A DNA stretch of 55,558 bases from a virus: positions 1 through 55,558 of IMG/VR virus record IMGVR_UViG_3300021492_000002; one strand, 5' to 3'. Shown here one piece after another: positions 17,353-50,161 of this stretch. Made by a program: the position numbers and the translations under genes. Below the pieces are notes generated by a model. That model saw only the letters and a program-made list of their open reading frames with translations, was not told the origin of the DNA and did not search any database. Position 1 is the stretch's first letter; the number at the start of each line of letters is the position of its first letter.

Positions 17353-18263
17353 AAAAGATAATTTTTATAATATTAATTATGGCGGTGGTTTCCATATCAC
17401 AGATTATTAGCGTTGGTGAGAATAGAGCTATTATCAACTTTGGTTCTTATGAAGGCGCGAAACTGTTGATCTATGATGATGTCCATGAGCTGTATTGGTA
17501 TGACGGTTCTTGGAGCAGTGATCCCAATGAATTGGGAGGTTATACATCAATACGGTATCCTATGGAAATAACGGGGTTGGTACCGGGCAGGAAGTATTGT
17601 TTGAAGGTAGTTGGATTATCGGGTACTGCTTATAATGCACTTTCATCCACCTATTGTTTTAATACTCTTGTTAAACCTATCAAGAGATTTACAAGTTGGG
17701 ATAGTATTTATGTGGATATAGGTGTTTTTGATACCATAAAGGGGAATTTTATGATGTTTTTCCCTTATAATACAGAGCCACCGCATGTAAGTGGGCTTCT
17801 CTATCTAAAGAGATCTGGTGATGTTGATACGCTTATGTATTGGAATGGGATTCGTTGGGTTAAACTCATAGAGGTTGGAAGTGCAGGATTTGCCACTTTA
17901 TATGATGGTTCTGGCATCCGTGGTGGTACTTATAATGGTACGTCTGATGTGACGTGGTATATTGAGCCGAGCGCTACTATTGATACTCTCGGTGATAGTA
18001 TTTTTGTTAAGGATAATTCCATAGACAGTATAAAAATAAAAGATAAGTCAATTGCAACATCTGATATTGCACCAACGGGTAATAACGGGCAGGTATTAAC
18101 AATTGATGGTGGAAATGTTGTGTGGGGTGATGCTTCTGGTACAGCTCCAAGCGACCATGCATTTGATGTGCTTATAACTAATGAATCATTAGAGAAAGAG
18201 TGGAGAACACAGCCAGGCTTAAAGAGAGCAACGACAACAAATTTTGTTATATATAGATATTAA
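17349..18263 (+). CDS. Secreted fibre-like protein with signal peptide
   Basis: A 304-residue protein with a clear Sec signal peptide (MKK IIFIILIMAVVSIS, cleavage probably near residue 18-20). The mid-region resembles a fibronectin-like fold; the C-terminal half has the tail-fibre style 'G.nGQVLTIDGGNVVWG' (~residues 245-260), typical of fibre shafts in phage and bacterial fibre-like proteins. The last residues, ATTTNFVIYRY, are mirrored at the ends of the next two proteins. ATGA overlap with the structural gene upstream. A signal peptide on a phage fibre-type protein is odd: either it is exported to the cell surface, or the hydrophobic start serves membrane association. Confidence 0.6.
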   Translation: MKKIIFIILIMAVVSISQIISVGENRAIINFGSYEGAKLLIYDDVHELYWYDGSWSSDPNELGGYTSIRYPMEITGLVPGRKYCLKVVGLSGTAYNALSSTYCFNTLVKPIKRFTSWDSIYVDIGVFDTIKGNFMMFFPYNTEPPHVSGLLYLKRSGDVDTLMYWNGIRWVKLIEVGSAGFATLYDGSGIRGGTYNGTSDVTWYIEPSATIDTLGDSIFVKDNSIDSIKIKDKSIATSDIAPTGNNGQVLTIDGGNVVWGDASGTAPSDHAFDVLITNESLEKEWRTQPGLKRATTTNFVIYRY

Positions 18264-18275
18264 TAGGAGGTAATA

Positions 18276-20231
18276 ATGAAAATATTAAAAATAATAGGAG
18301 CTATCTTACTGTTGTCATCGATGGCGTTAGGTGTTGTACCGGGCAAGCTTATGTATATGGGAAGGTTGGCTGATGCCGACAATCATGTTGTTAATGGATA
18401 TGTAGAGATGAGGTTTAAGTTCTATTCAGATAGCACAGGGACAACGCCTTTTAAAACGATTGAGTTTGTTGGTGATGATTCCATTGAGGTTTCGGCAGGT
18501 TACTTCTTTGTTGTTATGGATTTATCAGATGTTATTGATTCGCTTAATCAGACAGTGTATCTTGAGGTTGATATTTATAATAAAGGCACATCTAGTTGGG
18601 AAACATCTGCAGAGAGGGAGAGGCTTGTAGCGCAGGTGCCTTATACGATATGGGCCCGCCGATCGGCTGTTGCTGAGACTGCAAATGTTGTTGGTTCTGG
18701 TGCTGTGCAGACAAGCATGCCTATAACAGGTGATGGCACATCTGGTAATCCAATTTCGCTTACATATGGTTCGGGGCTTACACTTTCAAGTTCGGTGCTA
18801 ATTATAGACTTTGATAATAGCACTATTGATACCAATTCATCAGGTCAGATTAGAGTTAAACCGGGTGGTATAACATCAACAGAAATTGATGATGATGTGA
18901 CATTTACTAAGATTCAAAACTCATCTGGGACACTGCAGTTTGTTATTACTGATGGCAATACTGCACTACAGTTTGCAGCATCTGGGATCAATAGTGTTAG
19001 TTTTGATTCTGATAACCATAGAGTTACATATACAGCAGAGGCTAATACCAATGTACCTATTACAGGTGATGGTTCATCCGGATCACCTATTAGTTTAAAT
19101 TATGGTAATGGACTTACATTATCAGGATCGGATCTTATTATTAATGAGAGTGATATCCCATATACACCATCGGATGTGTCTGATTGGGATGGTAGTACAG
19201 ATCCTGGAAATGTGAACGATGCATTGGATCAATTAGCTAGTAGAACTGCCAATATTGAGAGTGGTAGCAATAATAATTATATCCGCAATCAATATTCATC
19301 TGCGCAAGCAGCAAGTTTTTGGATTAATGGAAAAGGTAAAGCTAGTCAATTAATTGCTGATGATGAATTCTTATTAGGCGATGTATTAAACATCTATCTA
19401 AGTAGTGATACAGTATATTATGTGTCTGATTCTGTACTGTGTTTTGGTGGGGGCTTAATTATCGAAGAAGACAATGATGTGAAATTAACGGGTGATCTTT
19501 ATATTCCGAATGCTACTGTGAATACTGCAGCAAGTACATTATTAGCTATAACAAATGGCAAAGTAGAAAAAATTCTAAAGTCAAGTGTTACGGCTGGTGT
19601 GTCTTCTATTACAGGAGGACTTGGTCTAGAACCCGATGATGCATCTACAGGTGACATTACTATGACTGTTGACATGACAGAGCTTTATCTTAAAGGACTG
19701 GTAGCAACTACATATGATTCGTTAAGGGTAAAAATAGATGGTAATACAATATGTTTTGGTGGCTCTAATGAATTACAAATTTGTTATGGTGGTATATCAA
19801 CAAATCATATTAGCGATGGTACAATTATTGATAATGATATATCTTCCAGTGCGGCTATACAGTGGACGAAGATAAGCAAATCGGGATCTTCCATAGATGA
19901 TTTAGGTGACGTAAGTACGAGTTCAGCAGCTTCAGGGGATATATTATATTATGATGGAAGTAAATGGACAATCCTTTCGGCTGGAACAAGTGGCTATGTA
20001 CTTCACACGAATGGAGCTGGAGCGGCGCCTTCATGGAGCACAATGGCCGATCTAATAGCAGGAGATGGTCTAAAATATACATCAGCCGGGAATTATAATG
20101 GTATAAATGATAAAACACTTCAAATAGATGTAGCTGATTCATCTTTAACATTTTCTGATTCCAAGTTAAAGGTTTCATTAGGCAAAGCGACCTTGACAAC
20201 AACAAATTATAAAATATATAGAAATTATTAA
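18276..20231 (+). CDS. Secreted tail-fibre-like protein, first of a tandem pair
   Basis: A 651-residue protein with a signal peptide (MKILKIIGAILLLSSMALG). It is followed by the N-terminal domain known from bacterial fibre-like proteins (VPGKLMYMGRLADADNHVVNGYVEMRFKFY…), in which 'GRL.d…v.G.y.m.F.iY' is the usual pattern. The shaft has fibre motifs (YTPSDVSDWDGSTDPGNVNDALDQLASR) and ends LTTTNYKIYRNY. It is clearly paralogous along its length to the next gene, with a near-identical central stretch (NIYLSSDTVYYVSDSVLCF). SD AGGAGG precedes the ATG. Role: probably a surface-exposed adhesive or receptor-binding fibre, but the export signal is unexplained. Confidence 0.65.
   Translation: MKILKIIGAILLLSSMALGVVPGKLMYMGRLADADNHVVNGYVEMRFKFYSDSTGTTPFKTIEFVGDDSIEVSAGYFFVVMDLSDVIDSLNQTVYLEVDIYNKGTSSWETSAERERLVAQVPYTIWARRSAVAETANVVGSGAVQTSMPITGDGTSGNPISLTYGSGLTLSSSVLIIDFDNSTIDTNSSGQIRVKPGGITSTEIDDDVTFTKIQNSSGTLQFVITDGNTALQFAASGINSVSFDSDNHRVTYTAEANTNVPITGDGSSGSPISLNYGNGLTLSGSDLIINESDIPYTPSDVSDWDGSTDPGNVNDALDQLASRTANIESGSNNNYIRNQYSSAQAASFWINGKGKASQLIADDEFLLGDVLNIYLSSDTVYYVSDSVLCFGGGLIIEEDNDVKLTGDLYIPNATVNTAASTLLAITNGKVEKILKSSVTAGVSSITGGLGLEPDDASTGDITMTVDMTELYLKGLVATTYDSLRVKIDGNTICFGGSNELQICYGGISTNHISDGTIIDNDISSSAAIQWTKISKSGSSIDDLGDVSTSSAASGDILYYDGSKWTILSAGTSGYVLHTNGAGAAPSWSTMADLIAGDGLKYTSAGNYNGINDKTLQIDVADSSLTFSDSKLKVSLGKATLTTTNYKIYRNY
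20193..20220 (+). promoter_or_regulatory. Candidate promoter before the second fibre-like paralogue
   Basis: A perfect -35 box TTGACA (20193-20198), a 16-base spacer and TATATA (20215-20220) lie in the last codons of the upstream fibre gene. The expected RNA start is about 15 bases before the ATG at 20243, leaving the SD (AAGGGGTGG) in the leader. The geometry matches the promoters at 27.4 and 40.6 kb. The sequence is also coding, so it may be fortuitous. Confidence 0.4.
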
Positions 20232-20242
20232 GGGGTGGAACA

Positions 20243-22198
20243 ATGACGCGCTATATAGCTATAATTGTATTGTTATCTTTTACACTATCATTTGCCCTTG
20301 TGCCTATGAAGATTGTATATAAGGGGCGGCTTACTGATGCTAATAATAAGGTACTAGATGGTACTTATGACATGATATTTAGGATTTATGATGGTGGTTG
20401 TAATAGTGATTGTTCGGAGTGTACAGGTACCAAGCTCACTGACGATACGGTATCTGTTGAAGTGAATGATGGTTATTTCCATCATGTTATTGATCTATCA
20501 TCTTTATCATTAGAAAAGTTAAATAAGCAGCTGTTTTTGGAGATATGGGTTAAATATGGAGATTTTGAAAGGCTGTGCCCTCGTGAGACGCTATACACGA
20601 GGGCTCCTTATACTATATGGGCGAGATCAAGTGCTGTGGCTGAAACAGCAAATGTGGTAGGAAGCGGGGCTGTTAATACAAGTGCACCTGTTACGGGTGA
20701 TGGGACAGCAAGCGGTCCTATAACATTATCATATGGGGGCGGGCTTACCCTATCAGGAAGTGCATTGATAATCGCATTTGATAATAGTACTATTGATACC
20801 AATTCTGCTGGAAAGATCCGTGTTAAACCTAGTGGTATTACATCGACAGAAATTAATGATGGAGTTGTGTTTTCATCTATACAAAACAGTTCTGGTGCCG
20901 AGCAATTTACTGTTACTGATGGCAATAAAGCATTACAATTTGCTGCATCGGGGATGAATTCCGTTTCGTTTAATTCGACTTATAATCGTGTTACCTATAC
21001 AGCAACGGCTTCAGTAAGTGCTCCTATCACAGGTAATGGAACATCGGGATCACCTATAGGTCTTAATTATGGTACTGGGCTTACATTATATAGTTCAAGT
21101 TTGATTATCGATGAGGATAATATTCCTTATACGCCTAGTGATCTAACTGATTGGAGTGGTAGTACAGATCCAGGTGATGTTAATGATGGACTGGATCAGT
21201 TGGCTGATCGTATAACTTCTATTGAGGAAGGTAATAACACAAGTTATATCCAGAATCAGTATAGCACAACACAGTCAGCGAGTTTTTGGATTAGTGGAAA
21301 TGGTAGAGCCAGTCAATTGATAGCTGATGATGAATTTCTATTAGGTAATGTATTGAATATTTATCTCAGTAGTGACACAGTATATTATGTATCTGATTCT
21401 GTACTGTGTTTTGGTGGCGGCTTAATAATTGAAGAGGATAATGACGTAAAGGTAAATGCCGATCTTTATATCCCAAGTGCATCTGTAAATGCGTCAGCAG
21501 AAACACTGTTGGCTATAACAGATGGTAAGGTTGAAAAGATATTGAAATCTAGTGTCGTAGCAGGTGTATCATCTATAACTGGTGGACTAGGGCTCAATCC
21601 TGATGCTACGACAGAGGGTGATGTTGTAATGACTGTTGACATGACAGAGCTTCGTCTTAAAGGACTAGTAGCAACTACATATGATTCACTAAGGGTCAAA
21701 GTAGATGGCAATACGATATGTTTTGGGGGATCTAATGAATTACAAGTTTGTTATGGTGGTATATCGACAAATCATATTAGTGATGGAACTATAGTTGATA
21801 ACGACATAAGTGCCACAGCCAACATAGCATGGATAAAAATTAATAAGTCTGGTTCATCCGTAAATGATTTGGGAGATGTTAGTGCATCAGGGGCAGCCAC
21901 TGGTGCGCTTCTTTATTATAATGGTTCATCGTGGATCGATTTATCTCCAGGTACTAGTGGTTATATCCTGAGAACTAATGGAACAGGCTCGGCGCCTTCA
22001 TGGAGTACATTAAATACCTTATCAGCAGGTGATGGATTGACATATGTTTCAGGTGGGCCATATGATGGTACAAATGATTTAACATTGAAGGTTAATGTAG
22101 CTGATGCATCGCTTACTATTATAGGAGGTGGGCTTGCTGTTACGCATGGAAGCCCGGTGGCTACATCAGATAATTTTAAGTTATATAATAATCATTAA
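20243..22198 (+). CDS. Secreted tail-fibre-like protein, second of a tandem pair
   Basis: A 651-residue protein, exactly as long as the gene before and similar throughout. Signal peptide MTRYIAIIVLLSFTLSFA, then VPMKIVYKGRLTDANNKVLDG, the fibre-type N-domain, here with an extra Cys-rich loop (GGCNSDCSECTG). The shaft shares long identical stretches with its partner and ends SDNFKLYNNH. The pair is a tandem duplication that has diverged mainly in the N-domain and the tip, which would fit alternative or joint use in binding. SD AAGGGGTGG. Confidence 0.65.
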   Translation: MTRYIAIIVLLSFTLSFALVPMKIVYKGRLTDANNKVLDGTYDMIFRIYDGGCNSDCSECTGTKLTDDTVSVEVNDGYFHHVIDLSSLSLEKLNKQLFLEIWVKYGDFERLCPRETLYTRAPYTIWARSSAVAETANVVGSGAVNTSAPVTGDGTASGPITLSYGGGLTLSGSALIIAFDNSTIDTNSAGKIRVKPSGITSTEINDGVVFSSIQNSSGAEQFTVTDGNKALQFAASGMNSVSFNSTYNRVTYTATASVSAPITGNGTSGSPIGLNYGTGLTLYSSSLIIDEDNIPYTPSDLTDWSGSTDPGDVNDGLDQLADRITSIEEGNNTSYIQNQYSTTQSASFWISGNGRASQLIADDEFLLGNVLNIYLSSDTVYYVSDSVLCFGGGLIIEEDNDVKVNADLYIPSASVNASAETLLAITDGKVEKILKSSVVAGVSSITGGLGLNPDATTEGDVVMTVDMTELRLKGLVATTYDSLRVKVDGNTICFGGSNELQVCYGGISTNHISDGTIVDNDISATANIAWIKINKSGSSVNDLGDVSASGAATGALLYYNGSSWIDLSPGTSGYILRTNGTGSAPSWSTLNTLSAGDGLTYVSGGPYDGTNDLTLKVNVADASLTIIGGGLAVTHGSPVATSDNFKLYNNH

Positions 22199-28160: not shown

Positions 28161-29017
28161 GCAAAGTGTTATCATATCTTAGAAGCTGCGCGGCTTCCTA
28201 CATTGAAAACGAACTTGAATATGCCTATAATGCGTGGATTTATGGTGTTAGGCCTGTGCTTTCGTGGCAAGTACTCCCTCTTATCAACATATCAGATGAG
28301 GCGGCTTATGGAATTGTATCATTTGATATGGAGCATCCAACATTAACGCAGGGGCTTGCTCTCTGGTCACCATTTTTGTTTAACACCTATAGAAACTTGT
28401 ACAAGGTCATGGCTCAGGATGTTGACAAGCGCAATATTCTTTTGTATCCACATCATCTCTTTCTCACGAATGAGAAAGATAAGAAACTCCATGATAAGTA
28501 CACCAAAAAGATCTCGCAGGATATGCCAATCATATGGCAGTCATCATATGTACCGCCATTTATTTATTCATATATAGCAGAAACGCCTGTGGAACATACA
28601 GATTCCATCCCCAGTGGGTTTCTGAAGAAACCATTGGATAACAGGCTACCAATTGTAGCGACAGATTATTTAACATCTGAATCAATGAATCCTTTTTCTG
28701 CCTATCTTACATCAATACCCACATTTGATGCCTTTTACATGGCATGGACATTCAAGTTGTTCCCGGATCTTGTTATAAAACAATGTGATTTGACTATATT
28801 GCCAGAGTTAAGAAGGCAAGTTGTTGCAGTTCTATTATACACCTTGTTCCCTGATAGCGAGCTTGAGCCTCTTATGGAAAAATATGATCTGAAGGAGTTT
28901 TCATCGTTTCCCGAATTTATCCGTCCATATTTGGAATTTATAAAATCATTAAAGGCACAAGAAATAATATATGCACAGGAGAAAGGAGGAAGTGATGAAT
29001 TCATCATTTACGATTAG
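28157..29017 (+). CDS. Protein of unknown function (286 residues)
   Basis: A soluble-looking, mostly helical protein (MSKVLSYLRSCAASYIENELEYAYNAWIYG…) with many aromatic and Pro residues. No motif recognised. The SD (AAAGGAGGATC) is strong, the start overlaps the preceding stop by ATGA, and the end contains the SD and start of the uracil-DNA glycosylase gene. Its constant position beside DNA-repair and replication genes suggests a role in DNA metabolism, but nothing in the sequence demonstrates this. Confidence 0.5.
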   Translation: MSKVLSYLRSCAASYIENELEYAYNAWIYGVRPVLSWQVLPLINISDEAAYGIVSFDMEHPTLTQGLALWSPFLFNTYRNLYKVMAQDVDKRNILLYPHHLFLTNEKDKKLHDKYTKKISQDMPIIWQSSYVPPFIYSYIAETPVEHTDSIPSGFLKKPLDNRLPIVATDYLTSESMNPFSAYLTSIPTFDAFYMAWTFKLFPDLVIKQCDLTILPELRRQVVAVLLYTLFPDSELEPLMEKYDLKEFSSFPEFIRPYLEFIKSLKAQEIIYAQEKGGSDEFIIYD

Positions 29018-29699
29018 TAAACTTTACAGAGATTATGGAGTGGGCCTTTTTGCTGATGCATCACTATTATTCAACATGAGTAATTGTCAAGCATGTCCTG
29101 TCAAGGAGGATCCGATTATCGATCTTAGAGACCCACCTGTGAAGTATTTGGTTATTGGGGATTACCCGGGTCTAGAGGAGCATCAGGGAAGGCGGCTCTT
29201 TATCGGGCCAGCAGGGAGATTCCTGAGAGAGCTTTTGACTAAGGAGGGCATTGATAATGATAATGTGGCATTCCTGAATGCCTTCTTATGTTATGGTGCG
29301 CATAATCGTATTAACCATAACAACCCCATTTACTATTGCCAACCAAGGATTTTATATTATATTGCCTATTATAATCCTGAGGTTATTATATGCATGGGAA
29401 GACATGCCTGTGGTGTATTGGAGATACCGAATCAGGATCTTTATGATAAGCCGGCTGCTTATCGTTTGGAGACACCATGGTTTGAGGCCTATTTAGTAGC
29501 AACAATTAACCCAGCGTTGTATCTCAGGAATAAGTGGTCGGATGTTTTATATAAGAATATATTAATGGCTGCGAGATTAGCCAAGTGTCTTGGTGATTAT
29601 GATTGTCCAACGATTGAGAGTGTTTCGATAGGATTTCCAGATAATGTGCAAGAAACAAGACCAAGGGGGATCACATGCAATATGAACGAGGGGTATTGA
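28995..29699 (+). CDS. Family-4-like uracil-DNA glycosylase with altered motifs
   Basis: A 234-residue protein of the iron-sulfur uracil-DNA glycosylase superfamily, which removes uracil from DNA. Visible: cluster cysteines C31-x2-C34, C115 and C133; motif 1 region VIGDYPGLEEHQGRRLFIGPAGRFL (~53-77) against the usual GEAPG..ED..G.PF.G.AG; 'FLNAFLC' (~93-99); 'VIICMGRHA' (~130-138); and motif 2 TINPALYLRNK (~170-180), where the usual His of HPA is Asn. The ATG at 28995 has AAAGGAGG; an earlier in-frame ATG at 28971 does not. The changed motifs mean activity or substrate may differ. Confidence 0.82.
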   Translation: MNSSFTISKLYRDYGVGLFADASLLFNMSNCQACPVKEDPIIDLRDPPVKYLVIGDYPGLEEHQGRRLFIGPAGRFLRELLTKEGIDNDNVAFLNAFLCYGAHNRINHNNPIYYCQPRILYYIAYYNPEVIICMGRHACGVLEIPNQDLYDKPAAYRLETPWFEAYLVATINPALYLRNKWSDVLYKNILMAARLAKCLGDYDCPTIESVSIGFPDNVQETRPRGITCNMNEGY

Positions 29700-30626: not shown

Positions 30627-32420
30627 ATGCAATTTATACCAGTAGAACATATATATGACATAACAGCCCTGCTTGCAACATATCTCCATAAATATGGTCC
30701 TGATTGGTTGAGAAAACTTAGAGAGGATTTGAAAACAACGCCATTATCGAAGCTTATGGCTAATGTTGCTACTGATATCGATATAAGCAGGATGGATGAG
30801 GAAACCGCTCGCTTATATGATTCATTATCGAAAATAGGCGGGCGCTTCGGCATAAGACGCTCACTTAATGCATTCATTACCATGGATATTGATACCTATA
30901 AAGCCAAACTAGAAGATAATAGGTATAAGCTACTCCAAGAATTTAAGTATGAATTCAATGATCCTACTTTTTTATTAAATCCCCCTGACGATGCTCCTGT
31001 CCCTAATGTAACAGAATTCGGTCAGTTCTTAGGTATTATTGATGCTCTTGTATCAAGGGCTATTCCTTTTGCTATAATAAAGGATGATGCGCTACATGTT
31101 ACATCATTATTCATAAAAACATTCATTAACATGCGTGACCTTGGATTATTTGAGAATACAACATTTGAGAACACTCATTTTCTTATTCATAATGAACAAC
31201 CGGTTGTATGGCAATCATTTGCTGAGGTAATGCAATATAGTGGTCCTTATTTAAGCAGTTTCGATACGGTATTTGTGATGCCTGAATTTCAGGGTTCCTA
31301 TGATGAATGGCAATTTATTCTTAGTCTTATTGAGCAAGCAGGTATTCCGATTTTATTTGTTGAAGGTCGAACGATTGAACCGTTCGTAAGTTACTTAACA
31401 GGTTATCTGAAAGATCAATCCGATATTGTTATATTAGATCCTAAAGAAACGAAGAGGCCGTGGGTTAATTATCTTATTAATTTCAGGAATAGGGTAAGAA
31501 GCACGCTTCATATAGGTCCAAAGTTGCAACCCACAGAGACAACGAAAGCTTATAAGTCTTATGTTCGTTCAGCGCTTCCAATTATTAAGCAGATGGAGCA
31601 TGAGAACATTTCATCTTTTATAAGCAAGCGCTTCTTCGAGCAGGAGAAAATTGTTGATGATATTATTAAGTGGATTCTCTTACACAAACATCTTGCGGTA
31701 AAGGAACCGCTGAAGCGGCCTTTTAGTATGCTATTTGTTGGTACAACAGGTACGGGTAAGAGCTATCTCGCGCGGCTTCTTATTGAATACTTCGATGTTC
31801 CTTCGTATACCATACATGGTAGCCTATTTAGTGAACAACATACGATAAGGATTTTATTAGGCGCGCCACCTAGTTATGTGGGTTTCGGTTTAGTACCTGC
31901 CTTCGAGAAGTTCTTATCACAACTAGGTGGATCAGACCAATTTCCTGCTGGTATCCTTGTTATTGACGAAGCTGAAAAGATGTGTCTTGAGGTTGTGAAT
32001 CGCATATTGGTGCCTCTTCTAGATGGTGAAGGCATACAGTTTGCTGATGATAAACATATTGTCCCGTATAATCTTATGGTGATCGCAACAGCTAACGGTG
32101 ATGCAGCAGAGCTATCTAAAAGCATAGGATTTGAACAGCAGGTTCTTGATGATCAAAAAATGGTGATGGAGGCCATTGAGAAGTACATGACACCAGAGGT
32201 ATTGGCCCGCTTCACGGCCGGGTATTTCTTTTATCCTCTTTCGGTTGATGCTTTGTATAAAATTGCTGTTAGGGAGTTTAAGCGATATGCTAATGATTTG
32301 TTTAACGATGAAGTGGCGAAAAAATTACGATCGTTTGCAGAGAGGGCCAAGCATGCAAGAGATGTGGAGCGGCAGGCCCTCATGTATGCATTCTCATTGG
32401 TGAAAGGGGGTGATTTATGA
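30627..32420 (+). CDS. ClpA/ClpB-like double AAA+ ATPase with inactive first domain
   Basis: A 597-residue AAA+ protein. The second domain is clearly of the Clp/HSP100 type: lead-in 'FFEQEKIVDDIIKWILLHK' (~335-353), Walker A GTTGTGKS (372-379), the Clp-style GAPPSYVGF pore region (~410-418), Walker B ILVIDEAEK (443-451, Asp447/Glu448), sensor-like 'MVIATANGD' (~485-493) and 'PEVLARF' Arg-finger region (~527). Residues ~100-290 resemble the first AAA domain in layout but lack Walker motifs. SD AAGGAGG. Clp ATPases remodel or feed proteins to a protease; no Clp protease is visible here, so it may remodel DNA-protein complexes or borrow host ClpP. Confidence 0.85.
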   Translation: MQFIPVEHIYDITALLATYLHKYGPDWLRKLREDLKTTPLSKLMANVATDIDISRMDEETARLYDSLSKIGGRFGIRRSLNAFITMDIDTYKAKLEDNRYKLLQEFKYEFNDPTFLLNPPDDAPVPNVTEFGQFLGIIDALVSRAIPFAIIKDDALHVTSLFIKTFINMRDLGLFENTTFENTHFLIHNEQPVVWQSFAEVMQYSGPYLSSFDTVFVMPEFQGSYDEWQFILSLIEQAGIPILFVEGRTIEPFVSYLTGYLKDQSDIVILDPKETKRPWVNYLINFRNRVRSTLHIGPKLQPTETTKAYKSYVRSALPIIKQMEHENISSFISKRFFEQEKIVDDIIKWILLHKHLAVKEPLKRPFSMLFVGTTGTGKSYLARLLIEYFDVPSYTIHGSLFSEQHTIRILLGAPPSYVGFGLVPAFEKFLSQLGGSDQFPAGILVIDEAEKMCLEVVNRILVPLLDGEGIQFADDKHIVPYNLMVIATANGDAAELSKSIGFEQQVLDDQKMVMEAIEKYMTPEVLARFTAGYFFYPLSVDALYKIAVREFKRYANDLFNDEVAKKLRSFAERAKHARDVERQALMYAFSLVKGGDL

Positions 32421-32824
32421 ATTCAATAACAATCGTCGGTACCATTGCTAGCAAGATAATGCATACAAATGGTCAATACGGTTGTTACCTGAAGGATGAT
32501 GATAACCTGTTTTACGTCTGGATGAGTGAGGGTATTATAAAGAGGGTGAAGGCCGGGTCCATATTGAACAAAGGCACCGAGGTTTTTATTATAGGGCGTG
32601 TAATACATACATTTAATAAGAATGGCAAGACGATCATTGCTGTCGGCGCCTATAAGCTACAACCCCTTGCATCAGTTGCTCTTAAGAACAGCATTGTGTC
32701 TCCCAATAAGCCGAAAAAGAAGAAGGAAGAGAAAAAAGTTGTTGAAGATGAGGACGGAAACGATATAATACCTGTTAATGTCAGGGATATATTAAATGGT
32801 CAATTTGAAGGAGAGGAAGCCTAA
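32417..32824 (+). CDS. OB-fold, SSB-like protein
   Basis: A 135-residue protein. Residues ~1-85 show the single-stranded-DNA-binding OB pattern: MNSITIVGTIASKIMHTNGQ… (first strand), a mid-region with aromatic 'LFYVWM', and 'GTEVFIIGRVIHTFNKNGKTIIAVGAYKLQPL', comparable with 'vyVEGrL…..dG…..v.a..v..L' of SSB proteins. Then comes a Lys-rich linker (KPKKKKEEKK) and an acidic tail (VVEDEDGNDIIPV…FEGEEA), as in SSB C-termini that recruit partners. ATGA overlap with the AAA+ gene. Beside a replication operon, a phage SSB role is the best guess. Confidence 0.5.
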   Translation: MNSITIVGTIASKIMHTNGQYGCYLKDDDNLFYVWMSEGIIKRVKAGSILNKGTEVFIIGRVIHTFNKNGKTIIAVGAYKLQPLASVALKNSIVSPNKPKKKKEEKKVVEDEDGNDIIPVNVRDILNGQFEGEEA

Positions 32825-33126
32825 TGGAAGTTGGGAAGATTTTATCTGCCTTTGTTAATAGAACAAGTGATGAAAAATATCAATTCCTGAAGAATGAGTT
32901 TGGTACATTATTGAAGTCGAGTAAGGAGCAAATTCCGCAGGATGTATTGGATCTTTTATTCGCTGTAACATATTATATACGGATTAACCCTACCCTTCTG
33001 CGGGGGCTTTCATATGTAGAATCATTAGTCAAGGCCGGCTTTAAGAATCCACGTCTTGATGAACTAAAGGATTCTATTGCAGAAGCACATAAAATTGCCC
33101 GTGAGATATTCATTTCAACAGACTAA
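32824..33126 (+). CDS. Small helical protein of unknown function
   Basis: A 100-residue protein whose start overlaps the stop of the OB-fold gene (TAATG). It is largely helical (MEVGKILSAFVNRTSDEKYQFLKNEFGTLLKSS…; LDELKDSIAEAHKIAREIF). It may be a partner of the OB-fold or AAA+ protein, since all three are translationally coupled. No family recognised. Confidence 0.5.
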   Translation: MEVGKILSAFVNRTSDEKYQFLKNEFGTLLKSSKEQIPQDVLDLLFAVTYYIRINPTLLRGLSYVESLVKAGFKNPRLDELKDSIAEAHKIAREIFISTD

Positions 33127-33139
33127 ATAAGGAGAAACA

Positions 33140-33562
33140 ATGAGCAAAGAAAATATAAAAGCACTTAAAAAATCACTAAGGAAGCGCATTGAATCGCACG
33201 TTGATTATTTGCAGAGGACTTATGGTGAGCTTTTACACACTAATGAGGTTTGTGCAATATGTGGAATCCTGCATGATACAATGACCTTTATTACAGATAT
33301 CGCAACAGAGATTGGGAAACTTGGTGCTGATGAGCAACGTGCTGTATTGGTCAATTTAATAGTATCATGCATAAAGCTTAAAGGCATAAAAAAGGTTTTG
33401 GTTATACCAATAAAGATGGGCTTATCCTTCCTATTTAAGACACTTCGCTTAACAGAAATCGAGATACCTGAAAAGCAGGCGAAGGCGATAATGTCCATAT
33501 ATGGTATGCTCTTTATGATAATCTCAATGGTGAAGGCAAAGGTTTGTGATGGAAGAAAATAA
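33140..33562 (+). CDS. Helical protein of unknown function (140 residues)
   Basis: Good SD (AAGGAGAAACA) before the ATG. Basic helical start (KENIKALKKSLRKRIESHVDYLQR), a Cys pair with His (CAICGILHDTM, ~38-48) and a hydrophobic helical C-terminal half (KVLVIPIKMGLSFLFKTL; AIMSIYGMLFMIISMVKA) that might insert in a membrane. No family recognised. The last codons overlap the start of a very short gene at 33549. Confidence 0.45.
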   Translation: MSKENIKALKKSLRKRIESHVDYLQRTYGELLHTNEVCAICGILHDTMTFITDIATEIGKLGADEQRAVLVNLIVSCIKLKGIKKVLVIPIKMGLSFLFKTLRLTEIEIPEKQAKAIMSIYGMLFMIISMVKAKVCDGRK

Positions 33563-33722
33563 GAAGACAAAGCCAATAGCTATTGGTATTGAAGAAATGC
33601 CATTGTACAGATCCTACCTTGATCATTACTTTATGCAGTTTTACCAGTTGATGGAATCCTTCAAGAAGTGGTTCTGTAATCTATCGGAATATCTTGGGAA
33701 GGTTGATTGGTACTATCATTAA
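33549..33722 (+). CDS. Very small protein ending at a shared stop
   Basis: A 57-residue reading frame starts with ATG at 33549, overlapping the end of the previous gene by 14 bases, and runs to TAA at 33720-33722. It encodes MEENKKTKPIAIGIEEMPLY… followed by an aromatic, possibly helical stretch (YLDHYFMQFYQLMESFKKWF). It exactly fills the space up to the opposite-strand sigma-like gene, and the two stop codons overlap in the palindrome TTAA, which argues for both genes being real. Function unknown. Confidence 0.55.
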   Translation: MEENKKTKPIAIGIEEMPLYRSYLDHYFMQFYQLMESFKKWFCNLSEYLGKVDWYYH

Positions 33723-34426
33723 GCCGCCGGCTCATCAATAATAATTGTCCCGTCAATAATCCATTCTTCAAGCTTATGAGCTTCATCAGTACTCAAACCG
33801 TAACCAATGCAGAACCCATGTTTACCCATTAATAGTGTTGATCTAATGAAGGCAAAAACGGTTGGATCGAGGTTCTCTTCCATTATGCTAAGAATCTTAC
33901 TTCCTACATCTGGTGGAGATAATTCTCTATGCGTATCAATGTCCTCATCTATTGGGATAAATCCATCCTTGGCAAGTTTGACAGCTTTACTTAGTGCTGA
34001 TTCATCATCATCGAGATCAATATTAGCCTCTGTTGTACCTGGTAATGCGATAAAATATCCACTTCTTGTTATAGCCCGTCTGATAGCCTTTCTGACATTG
34101 TAAAATACGACAGAGCTGAATGTACTCCCCTGTTCACATCTCCATGTTCTGATAGCGTTATGTAATCCTATGATAGCGATGTCATACATCTCTTGGCGCT
34201 CAAATGGTGCCCAGTGAAAGTAGTTTGTGATGATATCAACAATTAGCTTATGTGAACGCCTTATAAGCTCTTGGAAAATGCTATCATAAAGAGGTTGCGT
34301 ATCGTCGATTTTAGTAATAAGCGCTAGTTCATCAGTTTCAAGCCAGCGGAAAGCAGTTGCATATTCCTCGAACGATGCATAATCATATGTGGTGCGAGTT
34401 GTTGTTTGGTTTTCAATTTCTATCAT
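33719..34426 (-). CDS. Sigma-70-like RNA polymerase sigma factor
   Basis: A 235-residue protein. Residues ~60-118 resemble sigma region 2: 'HKLIVDIITNYFHWAPFERQEMYDIAIIGLHNAIRTW' then 'EQGSTFSSVVFYNVRKAIRRAI', to be compared with 'DL.Q.G..GL..A…FD…G..FSTYA..wIr.aI.RAI'. The C-terminal part (~180-235: SILSIMEENLDPTVFAFIRSTLLMG…YGLSTDEAHKLEEWI) could be a diverged region 4. It likely redirects host RNA polymerase to phage genes, as late sigma factors do. It has no SD and is coupled by ATGA to the gene upstream of it on its strand. Divergence leaves some doubt. Confidence 0.7.
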   Translation of the reverse strand: MIEIENQTTTRTTYDYASFEEYATAFRWLETDELALITKIDDTQPLYDSIFQELIRRSHKLIVDIITNYFHWAPFERQEMYDIAIIGLHNAIRTWRCEQGSTFSSVVFYNVRKAIRRAITRSGYFIALPGTTEANIDLDDDESALSKAVKLAKDGFIPIDEDIDTHRELSPPDVGSKILSIMEENLDPTVFAFIRSTLLMGKHGFCIGYGLSTDEAHKLEEWIIDGTIIIDEPAA

Positions 34427-36832: not shown

Positions 36833-37498
36833 TTATAGATGGATAAATATTCCTGGCGCTATTATAATGGTGTCCTCATCGGTAACAAGGTCGAATACAA
36901 CACCACTGTAATCTTCAAATATTCTAACCTCTTCAACATTGCGCACCCAGCCATCGAAGTTTGTTCCTCTCCACTTGTGTAGAGCTGGCGGCTTCCTATT
37001 ATCAGATACAATAGGTTTTAATGTTATTGCAGGTAATCTATCGCCGCTACGCAGTTCCTTGGCATCAATGTATGTCCATCCGCCCTGTCTGATAACACCT
37101 ACTCCAACATCAGCGGCGATTATAAATGTGTTAACCCTTAATGGATCTTCATCTATTGGTTGTTCCATACGTACAGCGACGGCTGCTCCCTTATAGTGAC
37201 GTATGGTCGCGCGCTTAACATTCTTCTGACAGAGAGCAAGTTTGCGTTGGTGAAGCGCGCCGGTTCTATCGTATGTTACAACCGTTGTGGCTATATCACT
37301 ATAACGCCTTAGCATTTCATTCCGCTCGAGATAGTCAAGGTTCGGATAAAGGACCTCCCATGCAACAAGACCTTTTGTTTGTTGTATGTAATTCCATGCA
37401 TCTCTAAGTGTAGGAGCTGACATGTATTCAGTCACATGTAGGTAACCACCTAATGAAAGGATATAGGCATCAATTATTTTAAAGGATCTGACGAACAT
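36833..37498 (-). CDS. Hint-domain-like protein lacking intein catalytic ends
   Basis: A 221-residue protein. The C-terminal half resembles the Hint fold of inteins and hedgehog proteins: 'GVIRQGGWTYIDAKELRSGDRLPA' (~135-158) is like 'v.T..G…I.eL..GD.v', and the end 'GVVFDLVTDEDTIIIAPGIFIHL' (~199-221) is like intein blocks F and G '.VyD..V…HnF…GI..HN'. The penultimate His is kept, but the final Asn is Leu and no Cys or Ser is seen at the expected first position, so splicing is not expected. The N-terminal ~115 residues are unknown. The ATG at 37498 has GGGAGGTGAAA; a GTG at 37504 is less likely. Confidence 0.5.
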   Translation of the reverse strand: MFVRSFKIIDAYILSLGGYLHVTEYMSAPTLRDAWNYIQQTKGLVAWEVLYPNLDYLERNEMLRRYSDIATTVVTYDRTGALHQRKLALCQKNVKRATIRHYKGAAVAVRMEQPIDEDPLRVNTFIIAADVGVGVIRQGGWTYIDAKELRSGDRLPAITLKPIVSDNRKPPALHKWRGTNFDGWVRNVEEVRIFEDYSGVVFDLVTDEDTIIIAPGIFIHL

Positions 37499-37509
37499 TT
37501 TCACCTCCC

Positions 37510-40678: not shown

Positions 40679-41608
40679 ATGTTAATGGAATTAATCGATC
40701 GCTTCTTAGTTGAAGAAGCTGTTAAAGATGTTTATAAGCGTGATCCTAATCGTGTGCGTCCTACTGAAGCATCAGTGAAGATTGATGGTATCGTATATGG
40801 TTCATGTTTAAGATCTTCATGGTATTCATTGAAGCATTTTAAGCCGCGCCCTCCTGATGCACGTGCCCTTCGTGTAATGGAGGTTGGTAAAGCTCTAGAA
40901 CAATTAGAAGCGGAGCGATGTAGGCGGATGGGTATTCTGGTTGAGAAACCATTGGATTTTAAGGTACCGAATCCACTAGAACCAAATCAAATTATAAGCG
41001 GCCGTAAGGATTTTTATGTGCATGTTGATGGGCATGATTATGTAGTAGAATACAAAACTGGCTCTGGGTACCCCTTTGAGAAGAATGTTATTAAGGGGGG
41101 TAAGTCAACAATTGATCATGTACTACAGATATCACTATACCTTCATTTCGGAGACATAAAGCGCGGGCTTCTTGTATACCTTGATAGAGGCTATTCGCAC
41201 TATAAGGAATTTCTTATCTATGTTGATAATGATGGTCACATATATCAAAACAATAAGGGCATCGGTATCAAGGTCGATGATATTCTAATGCGTTATAAAG
41301 AGCTTTATCAGTATGTTACTAAAGGTATATTACCACCGAGGGATTATATTCCCTTCTATACTTATGATATGGCAACAGCTGTTAAAGAAGGACTTCAACA
41401 TGGACGGATCTCGAAATCAATGGTTACTAAATGGGAGAAGGGGAAGGCGCCGCTTATGGATTGGCACTGTCGTTATTGCCCGTTCATTCAGTATTGCATC
41501 TTCGATGTAAAGAATCAGGAGGAAGCGGATGAGAAAATTACTGGTTATAATATCGATAATTTTATTTTTGAATATTATCGTTCCTTCCTTAGCCAGCGCA
41601 AGCGTTAG
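40679..41608 (+). CDS. Cas4-like PD-(D/E)XK nuclease with iron-sulfur cluster
   Basis: A 309-residue RecB/Cas4-type nuclease. Visible: early Cys43 (YGSCLRSSWY), catalytic core 'ISGRKDFYVHVDGHDYVVEYKTGSG' with D111, E124 and K126, a following Q160-x3-Y164-type helix (HVLQISLYLHF), and C-terminal C264-x2-C267-x5-C273 (WHCRYCPFIQYC). Together these define a 4Fe-4S Cas4/AddB-like exonuclease, used by many phages in recombination and replication end processing. The ATG at 40679 follows GAGAGGGGAGCAC; a TTG at 40652 lies in the promoter and is rejected. First gene after the face-to-face promoters; the next gene starts inside its end. Confidence 0.87.
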   Translation: MLMELIDRFLVEEAVKDVYKRDPNRVRPTEASVKIDGIVYGSCLRSSWYSLKHFKPRPPDARALRVMEVGKALEQLEAERCRRMGILVEKPLDFKVPNPLEPNQIISGRKDFYVHVDGHDYVVEYKTGSGYPFEKNVIKGGKSTIDHVLQISLYLHFGDIKRGLLVYLDRGYSHYKEFLIYVDNDGHIYQNNKGIGIKVDDILMRYKELYQYVTKGILPPRDYIPFYTYDMATAVKEGLQHGRISKSMVTKWEKGKAPLMDWHCRYCPFIQYCIFDVKNQEEADEKITGYNIDNFIFEYYRSFLSQRKR

Positions 41609-42908
41609 CTGTTATCTTAATAGAATATGGTACAATACAGCTGACGGACACCATTACATGGAATTGTTCATTGTTACGTTTGACGACACACCCTTTTGCA
41701 TTTATGATACTCTACATAATCTATATTATGATCCTACAAACTTTAAATGGCAATCAGATCGATATGATTGTCGCTTTACAGCAGCATTATATGAAATAAA
41801 GATGGTTCCGGGAACCCGGTATACGATTGCAATTGTTGACACAGACTCATTACATACAATATTAAGTGATTGCATTTTTGATACCTTTGGTGGTGTTTTG
41901 GATACATCACCTGTTTACCATGTTGCTGATTCACATCTAGTTAGATATTCCTTAAAGGTGGGGCGTTCGATATTTGTGTATGACTCAGCGCAGGTTAATA
42001 ACATTGGAACGTGCCCTGTACCTTTTGATACTGTTTTTGCCAAAGCATTTATGATTAAGAATGCTGATGGGACATGTACAATGCTCAGGCCTAGCAGAAG
42101 CAGTAAGTTCAGCTCTGTTTTTGCGGGCTTATATTATGATGGCTGGATATGTGGCCGCTGCTATAAATTTATTGTACCTTATGATAGTGTTGAATTTCTC
42201 GGTGTTGGATTCTCCGCAAGAACACGTACAGATCCACCGCCTGATGCTATTGAAGCTGAGCAGATGAAAATTGTAATAAATAATGCGGATACGATTTATA
42301 TTTCCATACCAGGCCCAGCCTTCATGCATAATTTTTTTGATTCAACAATCATGTTACATGAGGATGATACAATTGAGATATGCTTTTGCACACCACCAAA
42401 TAGTAATGCTGACTGTCATTATCGAGATGCACAAGTACTATTATTTGGGAATATTTATGGTTATGCATCAGTTATAAGGACTGAAATGTTTTTCATTGCA
42501 TCAGGGATACCTGATTTGGAGTTCAATCCCATGATGTTTACTACAGATCCAATGGGTGCGGGGCCTCTTGTAATAACAATGCGCTGGATTAAATCATACT
42601 ATGATGCAATGGGAGATTATCCAACTTATAATAGTTTGTACAATATCATAAGCTTTTTATATAGGTTATCACCAGAGGAATTCGATCTAAAAATAATGTT
42701 CTCAAGACATTTGCTTACCAATAATACGAAACAGCTTCATACATATGGGATGATTCCATCAACTATTATGTATGGTTCATTAGATGATGATTATGATCTT
42801 TATGTATCTGGTGATGAATATATAAGACCATATGTCCCCGTTATCATAGCGCCAAAGGTTAATGCTACTAGGCCACTGATGGCAACATTATTTATAGGAT
42901 TCCGATGA
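41529..42908 (+). CDS. Secreted protein with signal peptide, Cys-rich family
   Basis: A 459-residue protein with a Sec signal peptide (MRKLLVIISIILFLNIIVPSLASA). A perfect SD (AGGAGGAAGCGG) and the signal-peptide codons lie within the last 80 bases of the nuclease gene. The mature protein is beta-rich with many Cys, consistent with disulfides after export. Residues ~155-190 (NNIGTCPVPFDTVFAKAFMIKNADGTC) recur in related form in the genes at 43246 and 44587. No known domain or enzyme motif. Probably on the cell surface, in the periplasm or in an extracellular structure. Confidence 0.6.
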   Translation: MRKLLVIISIILFLNIIVPSLASASVSCYLNRIWYNTADGHHYMELFIVTFDDTPFCIYDTLHNLYYDPTNFKWQSDRYDCRFTAALYEIKMVPGTRYTIAIVDTDSLHTILSDCIFDTFGGVLDTSPVYHVADSHLVRYSLKVGRSIFVYDSAQVNNIGTCPVPFDTVFAKAFMIKNADGTCTMLRPSRSSKFSSVFAGLYYDGWICGRCYKFIVPYDSVEFLGVGFSARTRTDPPPDAIEAEQMKIVINNADTIYISIPGPAFMHNFFDSTIMLHEDDTIEICFCTPPNSNADCHYRDAQVLLFGNIYGYASVIRTEMFFIASGIPDLEFNPMMFTTDPMGAGPLVITMRWIKSYYDAMGDYPTYNSLYNIISFLYRLSPEEFDLKIMFSRHLLTNNTKQLHTYGMIPSTIMYGSLDDDYDLYVSGDEYIRPYVPVIIAPKVNATRPLMATLFIGFR

Positions 42909-43312
42909 AAAAGATTGTTTTTATAATATTGTTAATATGTATAATAGCTTCACCTGCTGATATTAAGGTTTTTATTGATGCTATTGTTGATACCACATAT
43001 GGTGTTAATGGCTATAAATGGTGGGTCTTTTATAAGTTTGGTGACAGCACATATTTTGTAACCGATTGGGCACAGCCAATAAAGCAGTCAAAGATAAGTA
43101 ATGACACTCTTACCATATTTATCCCATTCTATGTATTCTTTGAAAATGATAGTTGCATAAGGCAGGTTGCTCTCTATCCTGTTCCTGGTACTGGTATGAG
43201 TTTGCATGTAAGAATAAGGGAGAAGACAGGAGTCGTAAAGAATTCATGTCTAAATATAGACTTTACATATTCATCCTACTTGCGTGGTGGTGTTTGGTAT
43301 CTCAAGCCATAG
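42905..43312 (+). CDS. Small secreted protein with signal peptide
   Basis: A 135-residue protein with the start MKKIVFIILLICIIASPADIK, a short signal peptide. The mature ~115 residues are beta-rich with two Cys (ENDSCIRQVA; KNSCLNIDF) that may pair. ATGA overlap with the gene before; the next gene starts 67 bases before its end. Unknown function. Confidence 0.55.
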   Translation: MKKIVFIILLICIIASPADIKVFIDAIVDTTYGVNGYKWWVFYKFGDSTYFVTDWAQPIKQSKISNDTLTIFIPFYVFFENDSCIRQVALYPVPGTGMSLHVRIREKTGVVKNSCLNIDFTYSSYLRGGVWYLKP

Positions 43313-44238
43313 GGCAGACTGTTATATCGGACAGTGCGGAGAATTGGTATAAGTATCGTGTTTCCAGTATTTATTGTTACGGAGGCTGGGAGTCGCCGGC
43401 CTCTGTTATAAACTACATTGGTCTGTGCAGCATACCATTTGATTCAATCTTTGCCTATGTATATATGGTATCAACAGATTCAGGTTGTTTTCCTATTTTG
43501 ATATTAAAAAGGCAGCGTGTTTGGTTGGGGTTTCGCTACATAGATGGGAAGGAGAACTGTAATTACAATCTATGTGTGAAGGGGGAGGATAGCTTATTAA
43601 TTGAAGTTATCTCAAGGGTTAATGATACTGTATGTCTTAACGACACCTGCATGGTAACCCCATTTGTGTATCACTATGTTAAAACTGATACGGCGGAAAC
43701 GCTTATTAATATTTGTACTAATGGTTCTAATGATGTGGTTATCAATGTTTATGGTGATGCTGTTTATTATGAAGCCCGCACCTATCCATTTTTTAATGTC
43801 TTAAGAGATCACGCTCTCTTTCCTATAACATTGTCATGGATTGAGTGGGTTAGCAAGTTGTTACATAGTGATTCATTAAACGTACGCAGTTTTTTAGATA
43901 TTTACTTTACATCAGAGGTTATGGGATATCCTGTTTTACCAGAGGAATATAAGTATGCGCTGGTTTATACTGATAGTATAAATTATAGTTATGGACCCCC
44001 ACGTTGTCCTGTCACTGATGAATGTTATATCGATTATGGTTATTTGTTTAGATGGGGTAAGAATAGTTATCTAAGTGGCTGGCTTACATACTTCAATCCT
44101 TATGAACATTCTGGTATCAAAGACACAACAATCAAGGAAGGGGTTTATTGGTTCACAACAAGAAGGAAGATAAATGGCACGAATACATTTTATAAAGGTT
44201 ACATTCATCCTACTATTCCTTGGTCTTTCTATCATTAA
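43246..44238 (+). CDS. Secreted protein with signal peptide, Cys-rich family
   Basis: A 330-residue protein. I take the ATG at 43246 (MSKYRLYIFILLAWWCLVSQAIGQ) because it gives a clean signal peptide; the frame is open further upstream to 43153 but that start would bury the signal. The mature N-terminus contains 'NYIGLCSIPFDSIFAYVYMVSTDSGC' (~50-75), closely like a segment in the 41529 protein, then more beta sequence with Cys pairs. Its signal peptide is encoded in the end of the previous gene. Function unknown; exported. Confidence 0.55.
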   Translation: MSKYRLYIFILLAWWCLVSQAIGQTVISDSAENWYKYRVSSIYCYGGWESPASVINYIGLCSIPFDSIFAYVYMVSTDSGCFPILILKRQRVWLGFRYIDGKENCNYNLCVKGEDSLLIEVISRVNDTVCLNDTCMVTPFVYHYVKTDTAETLINICTNGSNDVVINVYGDAVYYEARTYPFFNVLRDHALFPITLSWIEWVSKLLHSDSLNVRSFLDIYFTSEVMGYPVLPEEYKYALVYTDSINYSYGPPRCPVTDECYIDYGYLFRWGKNSYLSGWLTYFNPYEHSGIKDTTIKEGVYWFTTRRKINGTNTFYKGYIHPTIPWSFYH

Positions 44239-44668
44239 TGCTCAGTGTGTTCAGCAGGTTAATGCTGTTTCCAGAAGCGACGGCTTCCCTGATATATTAC
44301 TGTACATCAATGGTCTTTATGACCGTTCATATGCAATAAAAGTCGAATATGTCATGTGTGATTCTATTGATACCCTTATCTATCGCGGTAGTGGGGCTTG
44401 TTTATTAATCGGTAGTGAGCACATATTTATCTTTAATGATATTAATATCGCACATATAAGAGTCCCTGTTTTGCCTGGGCATGACTATGATTTATATATA
44501 TCTGCATTAGGTATAACAACATCGGGAAGTGATACAACAATAAGATATCACTTTTATTATGAGATAGAAAATGTGGAGGAATGGATATGCAAAGAATTAT
44601 TAATAGATACAGTAGTTGTCGATACATTGGATACATTTCCATCCTTTCCATCCTCATCAGTGTATTGA
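44174..44668 (+). CDS. Small secreted protein with signal peptide
   Basis: A 164-residue protein with signal peptide MARIHFIKVTFILLFLGLSIINA and mature start QCVQQVNAVSR. SD AAGGAAGATAA. Beta-rich, with Cys residues and an acidic, Thr-rich end (LLIDTVVVDTLDTFPSFPSS). The first 65 bases overlap the previous gene and the last 82 contain the start of the next. Resembles the small 42905 protein in plan, so small and large secreted genes alternate. Function unknown. Confidence 0.55.
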   Translation: MARIHFIKVTFILLFLGLSIINAQCVQQVNAVSRSDGFPDILLYINGLYDRSYAIKVEYVMCDSIDTLIYRGSGACLLIGSEHIFIFNDINIAHIRVPVLPGHDYDLYISALGITTSGSDTTIRYHFYYEIENVEEWICKELLIDTVVVDTLDTFPSFPSSSVY

Positions 44669-50100: not shown

Positions 50101-50161
50101 ATATGGGACGTGGGGGTTAAGAAGGCGGCGCTTCTGGAATGGTATTAAGCTCCCGCCGTGA
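47072..50161 (+). CDS. Very large secreted protein with signal peptide
   Basis: A 1029-residue protein, the last of the secreted series. SD GAGGAGTAAAT; signal peptide MVRRFIWATLVLFISAAINA. The early mature region (TTSLRIIDIEGRPIKVSSVDTI…) resembles a carboxypeptidase-regulatory-like or Ig-like domain; a fibre-like segment at ~295-340 (SQDISLDGIGYISDISTHQDTYVIVING) follows, then long beta-rich sequence with few helices. No catalytic motif. Its stop lies 17 bases inside the oppositely directed RecA-like gene, with no terminator between. Probable surface or extracellular protein. Confidence 0.6.
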   Translation: MVRRFIWATLVLFISAAINAYPVTAVNSLPDSFTTSLRIIDIEGRPIKVSSVDTIIIETFYDTINTHDTILFLTSYTSIFQFIEWIKYYSGNYYVRLKPGFGSKGTSTDSIRGPWPPVMHEVYQGDTLYLYARIYLHIRWAPFEHAWNDQLSYIRLLYIWNSTASKYVLHKISTVQFDPITIGRTNRHELYKEGLFWGLNLRKIYFHCDTTITTASSPKTICYLHYPVDLELIHKKFSTYDRYFILNSLNMCRFIADSDSSASSTSPIKHIMNAGFIDDIASIISQDISLDGIGYISDISTHQDTYVIVINGITKRKYRFSGITESDSLNPVDSVVVCKGYGVSDSVLYFRAHNDTAVIVLKALASDSFYIALCAIVKVDTTIDSSRHLTYIDYLPVGIFRIPRRTSGGGLITRFISCDHSDFHIVQPGLMPIVYDTLSEMPDTIGAPLFRWVALTKGIITHNDSTKLVAVAIIKDTVLVWDVTNDTTIMFGLPISVDTTYYYTEIASQPYDTSLIVFLLDNDDELLYILTINYDLSWDTTSIHLPYLGQRKFVFATTCVDTGPYYEYPIGCNCDTSDNVCDSLKWDYELIEPITKYSYHTIYPLVYDKRDEYYTLLNLDDSIDVRFDSLIYFWSMTIRDLIEDAFDGIQWIDVKPTLAGRSNLLHQPFIYYKLPGSWHWDIRGGTYGPAVGWNSSSVYHELNCRYAYLLSPIRNNLSDGRLRYCLRAYRNYPLRLRFVYTDPSGISNPSGVYPCVYRISLKGKYFSSTRMSSSWYWAHRVYPRYSYDFQIEVDPGTVPEMIIGTWFIEFTMNSAIYTDTVFIRNQVNHTGIRYYVEGFDFANIDSLFTTVWWEYGRPSYATLQFDFYFIDYTPPRSGASITVLGYLDKHQADTLFKNDSICGRCIDTLTPYYINVVHRTASGLISLTNGFIGLIMDREFDFRNDGWLQGIPTYYWDRNAETWHPTGVDSHIIDLHIYYGRPGFIDATPNCVITYNGYRYRSRHIINPNEYGTWGLRRRRFWNGIKLPP

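Follow-up and report, generated by a model that had tools for sequence, protein, structure and literature searches.

A ClpA-type AAA+ protein of a large tailed phage with one recognisable motor and an IGF loop at the ClpP-docking position

The Clp unfoldases ClpX and ClpA can remodel MuA and RepA complexes. ClpX has one active ring, and human Skd3 (CLPB) carries a single AAA+ module behind an unrelated N-terminal part. The two-motor ClpA is characterized by Walker motifs in both AAA+ modules. Partnership with ClpP is attributed to a short loop, and a portion of PMC7707817 describes the docking of IGL and IGF tripeptides into clefts of ClpP.

Clp proteins have also been reported from phages. 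Passages of PMC7824862 describe jumbo-phage ClpA, ClpX, ClpP and ClpS and propose that phage ClpS delivers targets to the ClpAP system of the host; the steering of a host Clp protease by a phage is thus not a new idea. PMC6102473 describes ClpA as highly conserved in most RaK2-like phages, and a pan-genome table of the 'moraphages' lists ClpA with a count of 24 (PMC12619734). ClpA-like proteins occur in many large phages, and the papers cited here only suggest roles for them. A literature search, judged by title and with most subscription journals outside its scope, returned no study of the protein described below or of a phage Clp protein with a lost first motor.

Here we describe a 597-aa protein encoded in a virus record of 55,558 bases (the window, that is, the whole stretch of DNA that was analysed). 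The protein is very probably a ClpA-type unfoldase. It shares with E. coli ClpA (class I HSP100, TIGR02639) the D2 motifs, the pore loop and a loop of IGL/IGF type in the same place, and it differs from ClpA in having no match to the Clp N-domain, no Walker motifs in its first half, a shorter C-terminal small domain and a smaller size (597 aa versus 758 in the solved E. coli ClpA chain). With one motor, no usual N-domain and the ClpP loop kept, it offers a small and tractable case. On the basis of its sequence, we lean slightly towards the reading that it is a ClpA-type unfoldase that has a targeting region of its own and is able to use host ClpP.

Source genome and the D2 motor

The AAA+ open reading frame is genuine, and its features are collected in Table 1. 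A near-identical protein, in which 10 of the 597 residues differ (98% identity), is encoded by the IMG/VR contig IMGVR_UViG_3300014911_000001 (G001; 175,796 bases), and in the scans that we ran the protein was carried by these two closely related genomes only. Both ends of G001 align with the window, which is consistent with a circular map. The source is a large tailed phage, probably a contractile one. G001 has matches to a tail sheath (a gene of 1,094 aa, PHROG E 2e-8 across the N-terminus), a large terminase, a UvsX-like recombinase and a ribonucleotide reductase, and the window has matches to a family-B DNA polymerase and a primase-helicase. The ribonucleotide reductase permitted no host call, since its matches in 3,748 phage records were all below 60% identity and came from phages of many hosts. 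Scans of viral contigs with the 597-aa protein, its parts and the primase-helicase, which rely on short exact peptides and let distant relatives escape, returned only G001, and no relative was found in a scan of genome contigs. Most genes in the run that contains the AAA+ gene are small, and the run is flanked by a tail-fibre-like region on one side and replication genes on the other; after it, the opposite strand encodes, among others, a DEAD/ResIII-type DNA helicase and the primase-helicase.

Table 1. Positions in the window of the AAA+ gene, its sequence features and the genes downstream
Feature	Position	Strand	Details
AAA+ gene	30627..32420	+	597 aa; Shine-Dalgarno-like AAGGAGG 5' of the start
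N-terminal region	30627..31601	+	residues 1-325; without Walker A/B
ClpA-type D2 AAA+ module	31602..32417	+	residues 326-597; C-terminal small domain shorter than in ClpA
Walker A GTTGTGKS	31740..31763	+	residues 372-379
Pore loop 1 GAPPSYVG	31860..31883	+	residues 412-419, Tyr417
Walker B ILVIDE	31953..31970	+	residues 443-448
ClpP-docking tripeptide Ile500-Gly501-Phe502	32124..32132	+	aligned with IGL617-619 of E. coli ClpA
Arg528, arginine-finger position	32208..32210	+	Arg in 80/80 kept viral relatives
Arg578, sensor-2 position	32358..32360	+	A577 and R578 unchanged across 36 aligned sequences
135-aa downstream gene	32417..32824	+	ATGA overlap with AAA+ gene; predicted beta-rich part, Lys-rich stretch, acidic tail
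100-aa protein gene	32824..33126	+	TAATG overlap with 135-aa gene; no family at meaningful E-value
140-aa protein gene	33140..33562	+	same gene run; no family at meaningful E-value

Profile searches recognised the second half of the protein. Pfam AAA_2 matched residues 366-530 above its cut-off (E 1.5e-16), and the top NCBIfam family was ClpA (E 9.7e-26, residues 324-568 against profile positions 447-682), followed by ClpB (3.4e-18, 65.4 bits), ClpV (6.5e-13, 47.8 bits) and ClpX (0.0017). The ClpA, ClpB and ClpV matches were confined to the D2 part, and the score against ClpA, 90.2 bits, fell short of the equivalog cut-off of 993.15. The phage family PHROG_4871, 'ATP-dependent protease', matched the C-terminal module with E 9.3e-24. 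A DNA polymerase clamp loader was considered and rejected, its match (phrog_168, E 2e-7) being far weaker than that of phrog_4871 (E 9e-24). When solved chains were searched with phmmer, 47 distinct sequences matched, every one inside residues 316-571, and all were named Clp or HSP100-type except 8xon, which is from a ClpC1:ClpP1P2 entry. The AlphaFold model had block means of 62-93 over residues 321-490 (at least 78 in 15 of 17 blocks), and it superposed on the D2 of ClpC and ClpA with Z ~22. These results bear out the first-pass annotation, which had ascribed Clp features to the second ATPase domain, and they place it with the Clp proteins rather than in a plain phage AAA+ family.

The module has everything that distinguishes an HSP100/Clp D2-type motor, that is, Walker A and B, a GYVG-type pore loop, sensor 1 with Asn490, an arginine finger and a sensor-2 Arg. 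We take the Walker A and B motifs, Tyr417, Asn490, Arg528 and Arg578 to hold the roles usually assigned to these positions. Lys378, Tyr417, Asp447, Glu448, Asn490 and Arg528 were identical in all 80 viral relatives that were kept (the best 80 of at least 467). Between the two genomes, dN/dS over residues 326-597 was 0.018, with few amino-acid changes, consistent with purifying selection. The D2 branch measures 2.43, and the median distance between a single relative (L050) and all the leaves of the tree is 1.17; on a branch this long, the D2 may have changed function.

Comparison with other unfoldases places the protein nearest to ClpA. The D2 folds of ClpB/Hsp104 and of human Skd3/CLPB resemble it with Z ~20-22; the ClpB profile came second to that of ClpA, and the ClpP loop that is present here is, to our knowledge, missing from ClpB. 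A Clp N-terminal repeat domain was absent among Pfam matches up to E 1, a range in which HMMER filters can drop very weak ones. Judged on sequence, the truncated C-terminal small domain might affect ring assembly or docking. The protein has an IGF loop in common with ClpX, as a part of PMC7707817 indicates for the latter; it is nevertheless much nearer to the ClpA D2, and the zinc-binding N-domain of ClpX was not among its matches.

We also compared the protein with Clp proteins of other phages. With tblastn at E 0.01, 133 of 50,697 phage records matched, many of them short and unannotated and some possibly bacterial DNA, and a profile scan of IMG/VR yielded at least 600 candidate stretches, at least 467 of which encode a relative, again with some that may be bacterial DNA. 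The earlier remark that HSP100 unfoldases are uncommon in phages does not agree with these counts. The phage ClpA-like proteins (PHROG_4871; RaK2, Atu_ph07, SCTP-2, the IMG/VR relatives and the 'moraphages') are phage-borne as well, have the same D2 and, in nearly all examined, the GF loop; the IMG/VR relatives are only 26-33% identical to the 597-aa protein over D2. Among the 77 kept IMG/VR reading frames longer than 650 aa (from the best 80 of at least 467), 71 were 720-800 aa long and 76 had two or more Walker A matches. The exception, L067, has the D2 Walker A only. It is a full-length viral Clp of 794 aa (reading frame at 1846-4227) in which the D1 Walker A ends in GKR instead of GK[ST] and Walker B reads ILFINDI, and by its sequence it is probably a second case of a lost first motor. 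When our model was compared with viral predicted structures, phage Clps (including the K64-1 ClpA) ranked first, followed by uncultured-phage AAA proteins of 488 aa and 356 aa, which may be other short forms. As far as sequence goes, what is unusual here is the form, namely a shorter protein, no N-domain match and a long D2 branch.

The loop at the ClpP-docking position

ClpA, ClpC and ClpX, the unfoldases that partner ClpP, have a tripeptide between sensor 1 and the arginine finger, and the 597-aa protein has one as well, within the sequence SKSIGFEQQ (residues 497-505). In the profile alignment to solved chains, this loop occupies the position of SIGL in E. coli ClpA. The ClpA numbering, 617-619, was counted from the printed alignment numbering, and it agrees with a passage of PMC7707817 that places E613 within the IGL loop. 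The tripeptide pattern [IVLM]G[FL] occurs three times in the protein (at 172, 418 and 500); being this common, it counts by its aligned position and not as a bare motif. The first-pass annotation had seen no IGF/IGL-type loop, had argued from its absence for protease-independent remodelling and had proposed a search for the ClpP-binding loop. That search found it at residues 500-502, contrary to the earlier reading, and since the loop exists, the step from a missing loop to protease independence fails.

The loop is widespread among viral relatives. At the aligned position, 79 of the 80 kept relatives (the best 80 of at least 467) have [IVL]GF, 69 as IGF, 5 as VGF and 5 as LGF, and L041 is the sole one without it. 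A simple pattern missed the loop in ten loci, nine of which the alignment recovered, and the count given is that of the alignment. This frequency gives weight to the question of what the loop does; if it matters for infection, phage Clp motors work via the host protease. In a separate comparison of four jumbo-phage relatives, Atu_ph07 and LR756504 had GF, SCTP-2 had IGY and RaK2 had IGV, and the last two suggest that phage loops can drift. Between the two genomes that carry the 597-aa protein, the 26 codons from 490 to 515 differ by 6 bases and by no amino acid. The loop was modelled poorly, with block means of 49 and 53 for residues 491-510. A loop of ClpA type is able to confer ClpP docking, and two solved structures fit this general view: 5ofo is a ClpB chain carrying the ClpA loop, and 4d2q bears the title 'BAP form bound to ClpP'.

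Searches of G001 for ClpP and ClpS at E 10 gave no match. The same searches in 14 control genomes gave matches for ClpP in all 14 and for ClpS in 8, of which 13 and 5, respectively, were above the cut-off. Given the intact docking loop and the lack of a ClpP match in G001, the use of host ClpP is our first choice; that this phage ClpA-like motor does use it we regard as an almost evenly balanced proposition.

The first half of the protein

The first half had been described as a dead AAA+ domain. Searches of residues 1-325 with strict and relaxed patterns for Walker A and Walker B found none, and to that extent the description stands; that this region was ever an AAA+ domain is not established, the sequence tests being negative. 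A D1 profile built from 71 Clps of viruses and phages scored negatively in hmmsearch against residues 1-326 (E 0.24); against the whole protein it reached E 0.031, with a match that falls on the D2 Walker A. Alignment of D1 with the first half by hhalign gave 0.8% probability (E 0.07, 29 columns). A PSSM Smith-Waterman score of 41.7 compared with a mean of 50.0 (sd 12.2) for 90 control segments of the same phage and with 45.9 for 40 shuffles; the controls were drawn at random from 149 segments, with the AAA+ gene, the MoxR-like gene and the neighbour at G001 46772-48064 excluded. MAFFT puts the D1 register near residues 24-110 and the secondary-structure reading puts it at 128-275, and as the two disagree we claim neither.

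Structure prediction gives a somewhat different picture. Residues 1 to ~110 are predicted to be mostly helical and residues 128-261 to alternate between helix and strand with low confidence (helices 128-143, 156-171, 195-209, 225-238 and 251-261; strands 148-151, 184-188, 213-219 and 242-246), and the model has block means of 32-62 across residues 1-320. The predicted order in 128-261 suggests an AAA+ core, yet other alternating folds show the same order. Foldseek aligned the model to whole ClpC, ClpA and ClpB chains, mostly over 490-600 columns, with TM ~0.28-0.36 and rmsd mostly 18-26 A. In five of 50 VIA rows the match extended back as far as residues 175-180 of the model, paired with residues 230-238 of the chain, with rmsd 16-21 A. 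Both results depend on a part of the model with low confidence, VIA barely probed residues before 307, and the alignment input to AlphaFold contained Clp D2 pieces.

The low-confidence model would fit a decayed D1 domain in residues 1-325. The other reading, that they are an unrelated phage-specific region for substrates or partners fused to a lone D2, is one that we doubt only a little more than we believe, and it is compatible with any reading of the motor. The absence of a D1 match by hmmsearch or hhalign and a PSSM score below the control mean argue for it, as does the fact that tblastn of residues 1-325 in 50,697 phage records found no homologue (a search with the 135-aa protein in the same records gave no match either), and the alternating helix-strand order suits many folds; the strand-helix order of 148-246, which fits an AAA+ core, the Foldseek alignments with two-module chains and the five VIA rows speak for a decayed D1. 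Constraint on this region is firmer than the evidence on its fold. Between the two genomes, dN/dS was 0.044 for residues 1-125, 0.014 for 126-325 and 0.027 for 1-325, with few amino-acid changes, and by this comparison the first half is under constraint.

Neighbouring genes and candidate roles

The AAA+, 135-aa and 100-aa genes had been proposed to be translationally coupled, and the overlaps between them agree with this. The 135-aa protein had also been called SSB-like with an OB fold, a label that the searches do not establish. Its only Pfam match was tRNA_anti_2 at E 0.13, and its model was all-beta with pLDDT 45; a structure search with this model gave no match at E 0.001, and the model was discarded. 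The SSB profile PF00436 had no match in G001, and the same search was positive in 12 of 14 controls. We searched 84 phage Clp loci (4.4-8.8 kb) by tblastn at E 0.1 with eight neighbouring proteins or parts, namely the 135-, 100-, 140-, 286-, 133- and 198-aa proteins, the UDG-like protein and residues 1-325 of the AAA+ protein. None matched, so this search, which would miss a diverged partner or OB protein, provided no second example of the gene pairing.

The 597-aa protein may, on this evidence, unfold proteins or steer them to the host protease. The single AAA+ ring of residues 326-597 would be the motor of an unfoldase or translocase, which we infer to form a hexamer, and ATP hydrolysis in this D2-type ring would thread a substrate chain through the central channel by means of the Tyr417 pore loop. 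Residues 1-325 would pick the substrate, perhaps aided by the co-translated 135-aa and 100-aa proteins. By docking on host ClpP, the IGF loop would let the phage supply the host protease with substrates of its own choosing; unfolding would also be possible without ClpP. We think it distinctly unlikely that a ClpA cut to one ring and given a new targeting region works with the small partners to re-aim host ClpP as a minimal phage-made degradation motor, with host defence proteins, host transcription or replication factors, or ssDNA-bound proteins as targets.

The motor could instead act without ClpP, dismantling or loading phage replication or recombination complexes with the 135-aa protein, possibly an OB-fold protein, as partner or target. 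We consider this unlikely, while giving it real weight. The setting of the gene fits it: the AAA+ gene overlaps the 135-aa gene, the DEAD/ResIII-type helicase and the primase-helicase are nearby, a family-B polymerase lies within the window, a type-4 uracil-DNA glycosylase-like gene lies upstream, and G001 has no ClpP match. A replication context is plausible for the AAA+ gene, by the indirect evidence of the helicase and primase-helicase genes. However, a protease-independent machine needs no IGF loop, and here the loop is intact and identical in both genomes; moreover, the 135-aa protein is not recognisable as an SSB, and its relatives were not found in the 84 other phage Clp loci, in which a diverged OB protein would have been missed. 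A chaperone for virion assembly or the tail, as suggested in the literature for jumbo-phage ClpA and ClpX, seems very unlikely to us. G001 does have the tail-sheath-like gene, the ClpA-like gene of RaK2 lies among virion genes, two from the sheath, and part of PMC7824862 suggests a translocase or virion-assembly role, but the AAA+ gene studied here lies between the tail-fibre-like region and the replication genes, in the run of small genes and far from the G001 sheath gene. Host ClpP docking by a ClpA-type unfoldase is the reading that we narrowly prefer.

Several other genes of the two genomes were noted. The uracil-DNA glycosylase-like gene (28971-29699, plus strand) matched an archaeal-type NCBIfam profile below cut-off (E 8e-17) and Pfam UDG (E 8e-15). 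A divergent sigma-70-region-2-like protein is encoded at 33719-34426 on the minus strand (PHROG_351, E 4e-8); it may be a sigma factor of the phage, in which case a bacterial host would be indicated. The 223-aa product of 36833-37504 (minus) matched nothing in Pfam at E 0.01 or in NCBIfam at E 1, and by eye its C-terminal end resembles a Hint/intein C-terminus. On the plus strand, 17349-22198 and 41529-50161 encode several proteins, some up to ~1,030 aa, with an apparent secretion signal peptide, as read by eye from the N-termini of the G001 copies. In G001, an AAA+ gene at 48064-49119 (minus; L009:8067-9119), which we take to be MoxR-like, matched PHROG_1297 'ATPase' (E 1e-33), and the adjoining 430-aa gene matched an HNH endonuclease (PHROG_1314, E 1e-16). 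The N-terminus encoded by G001 74808-76052 (minus) resembles, again by eye, a TnpB-type transposon nuclease.
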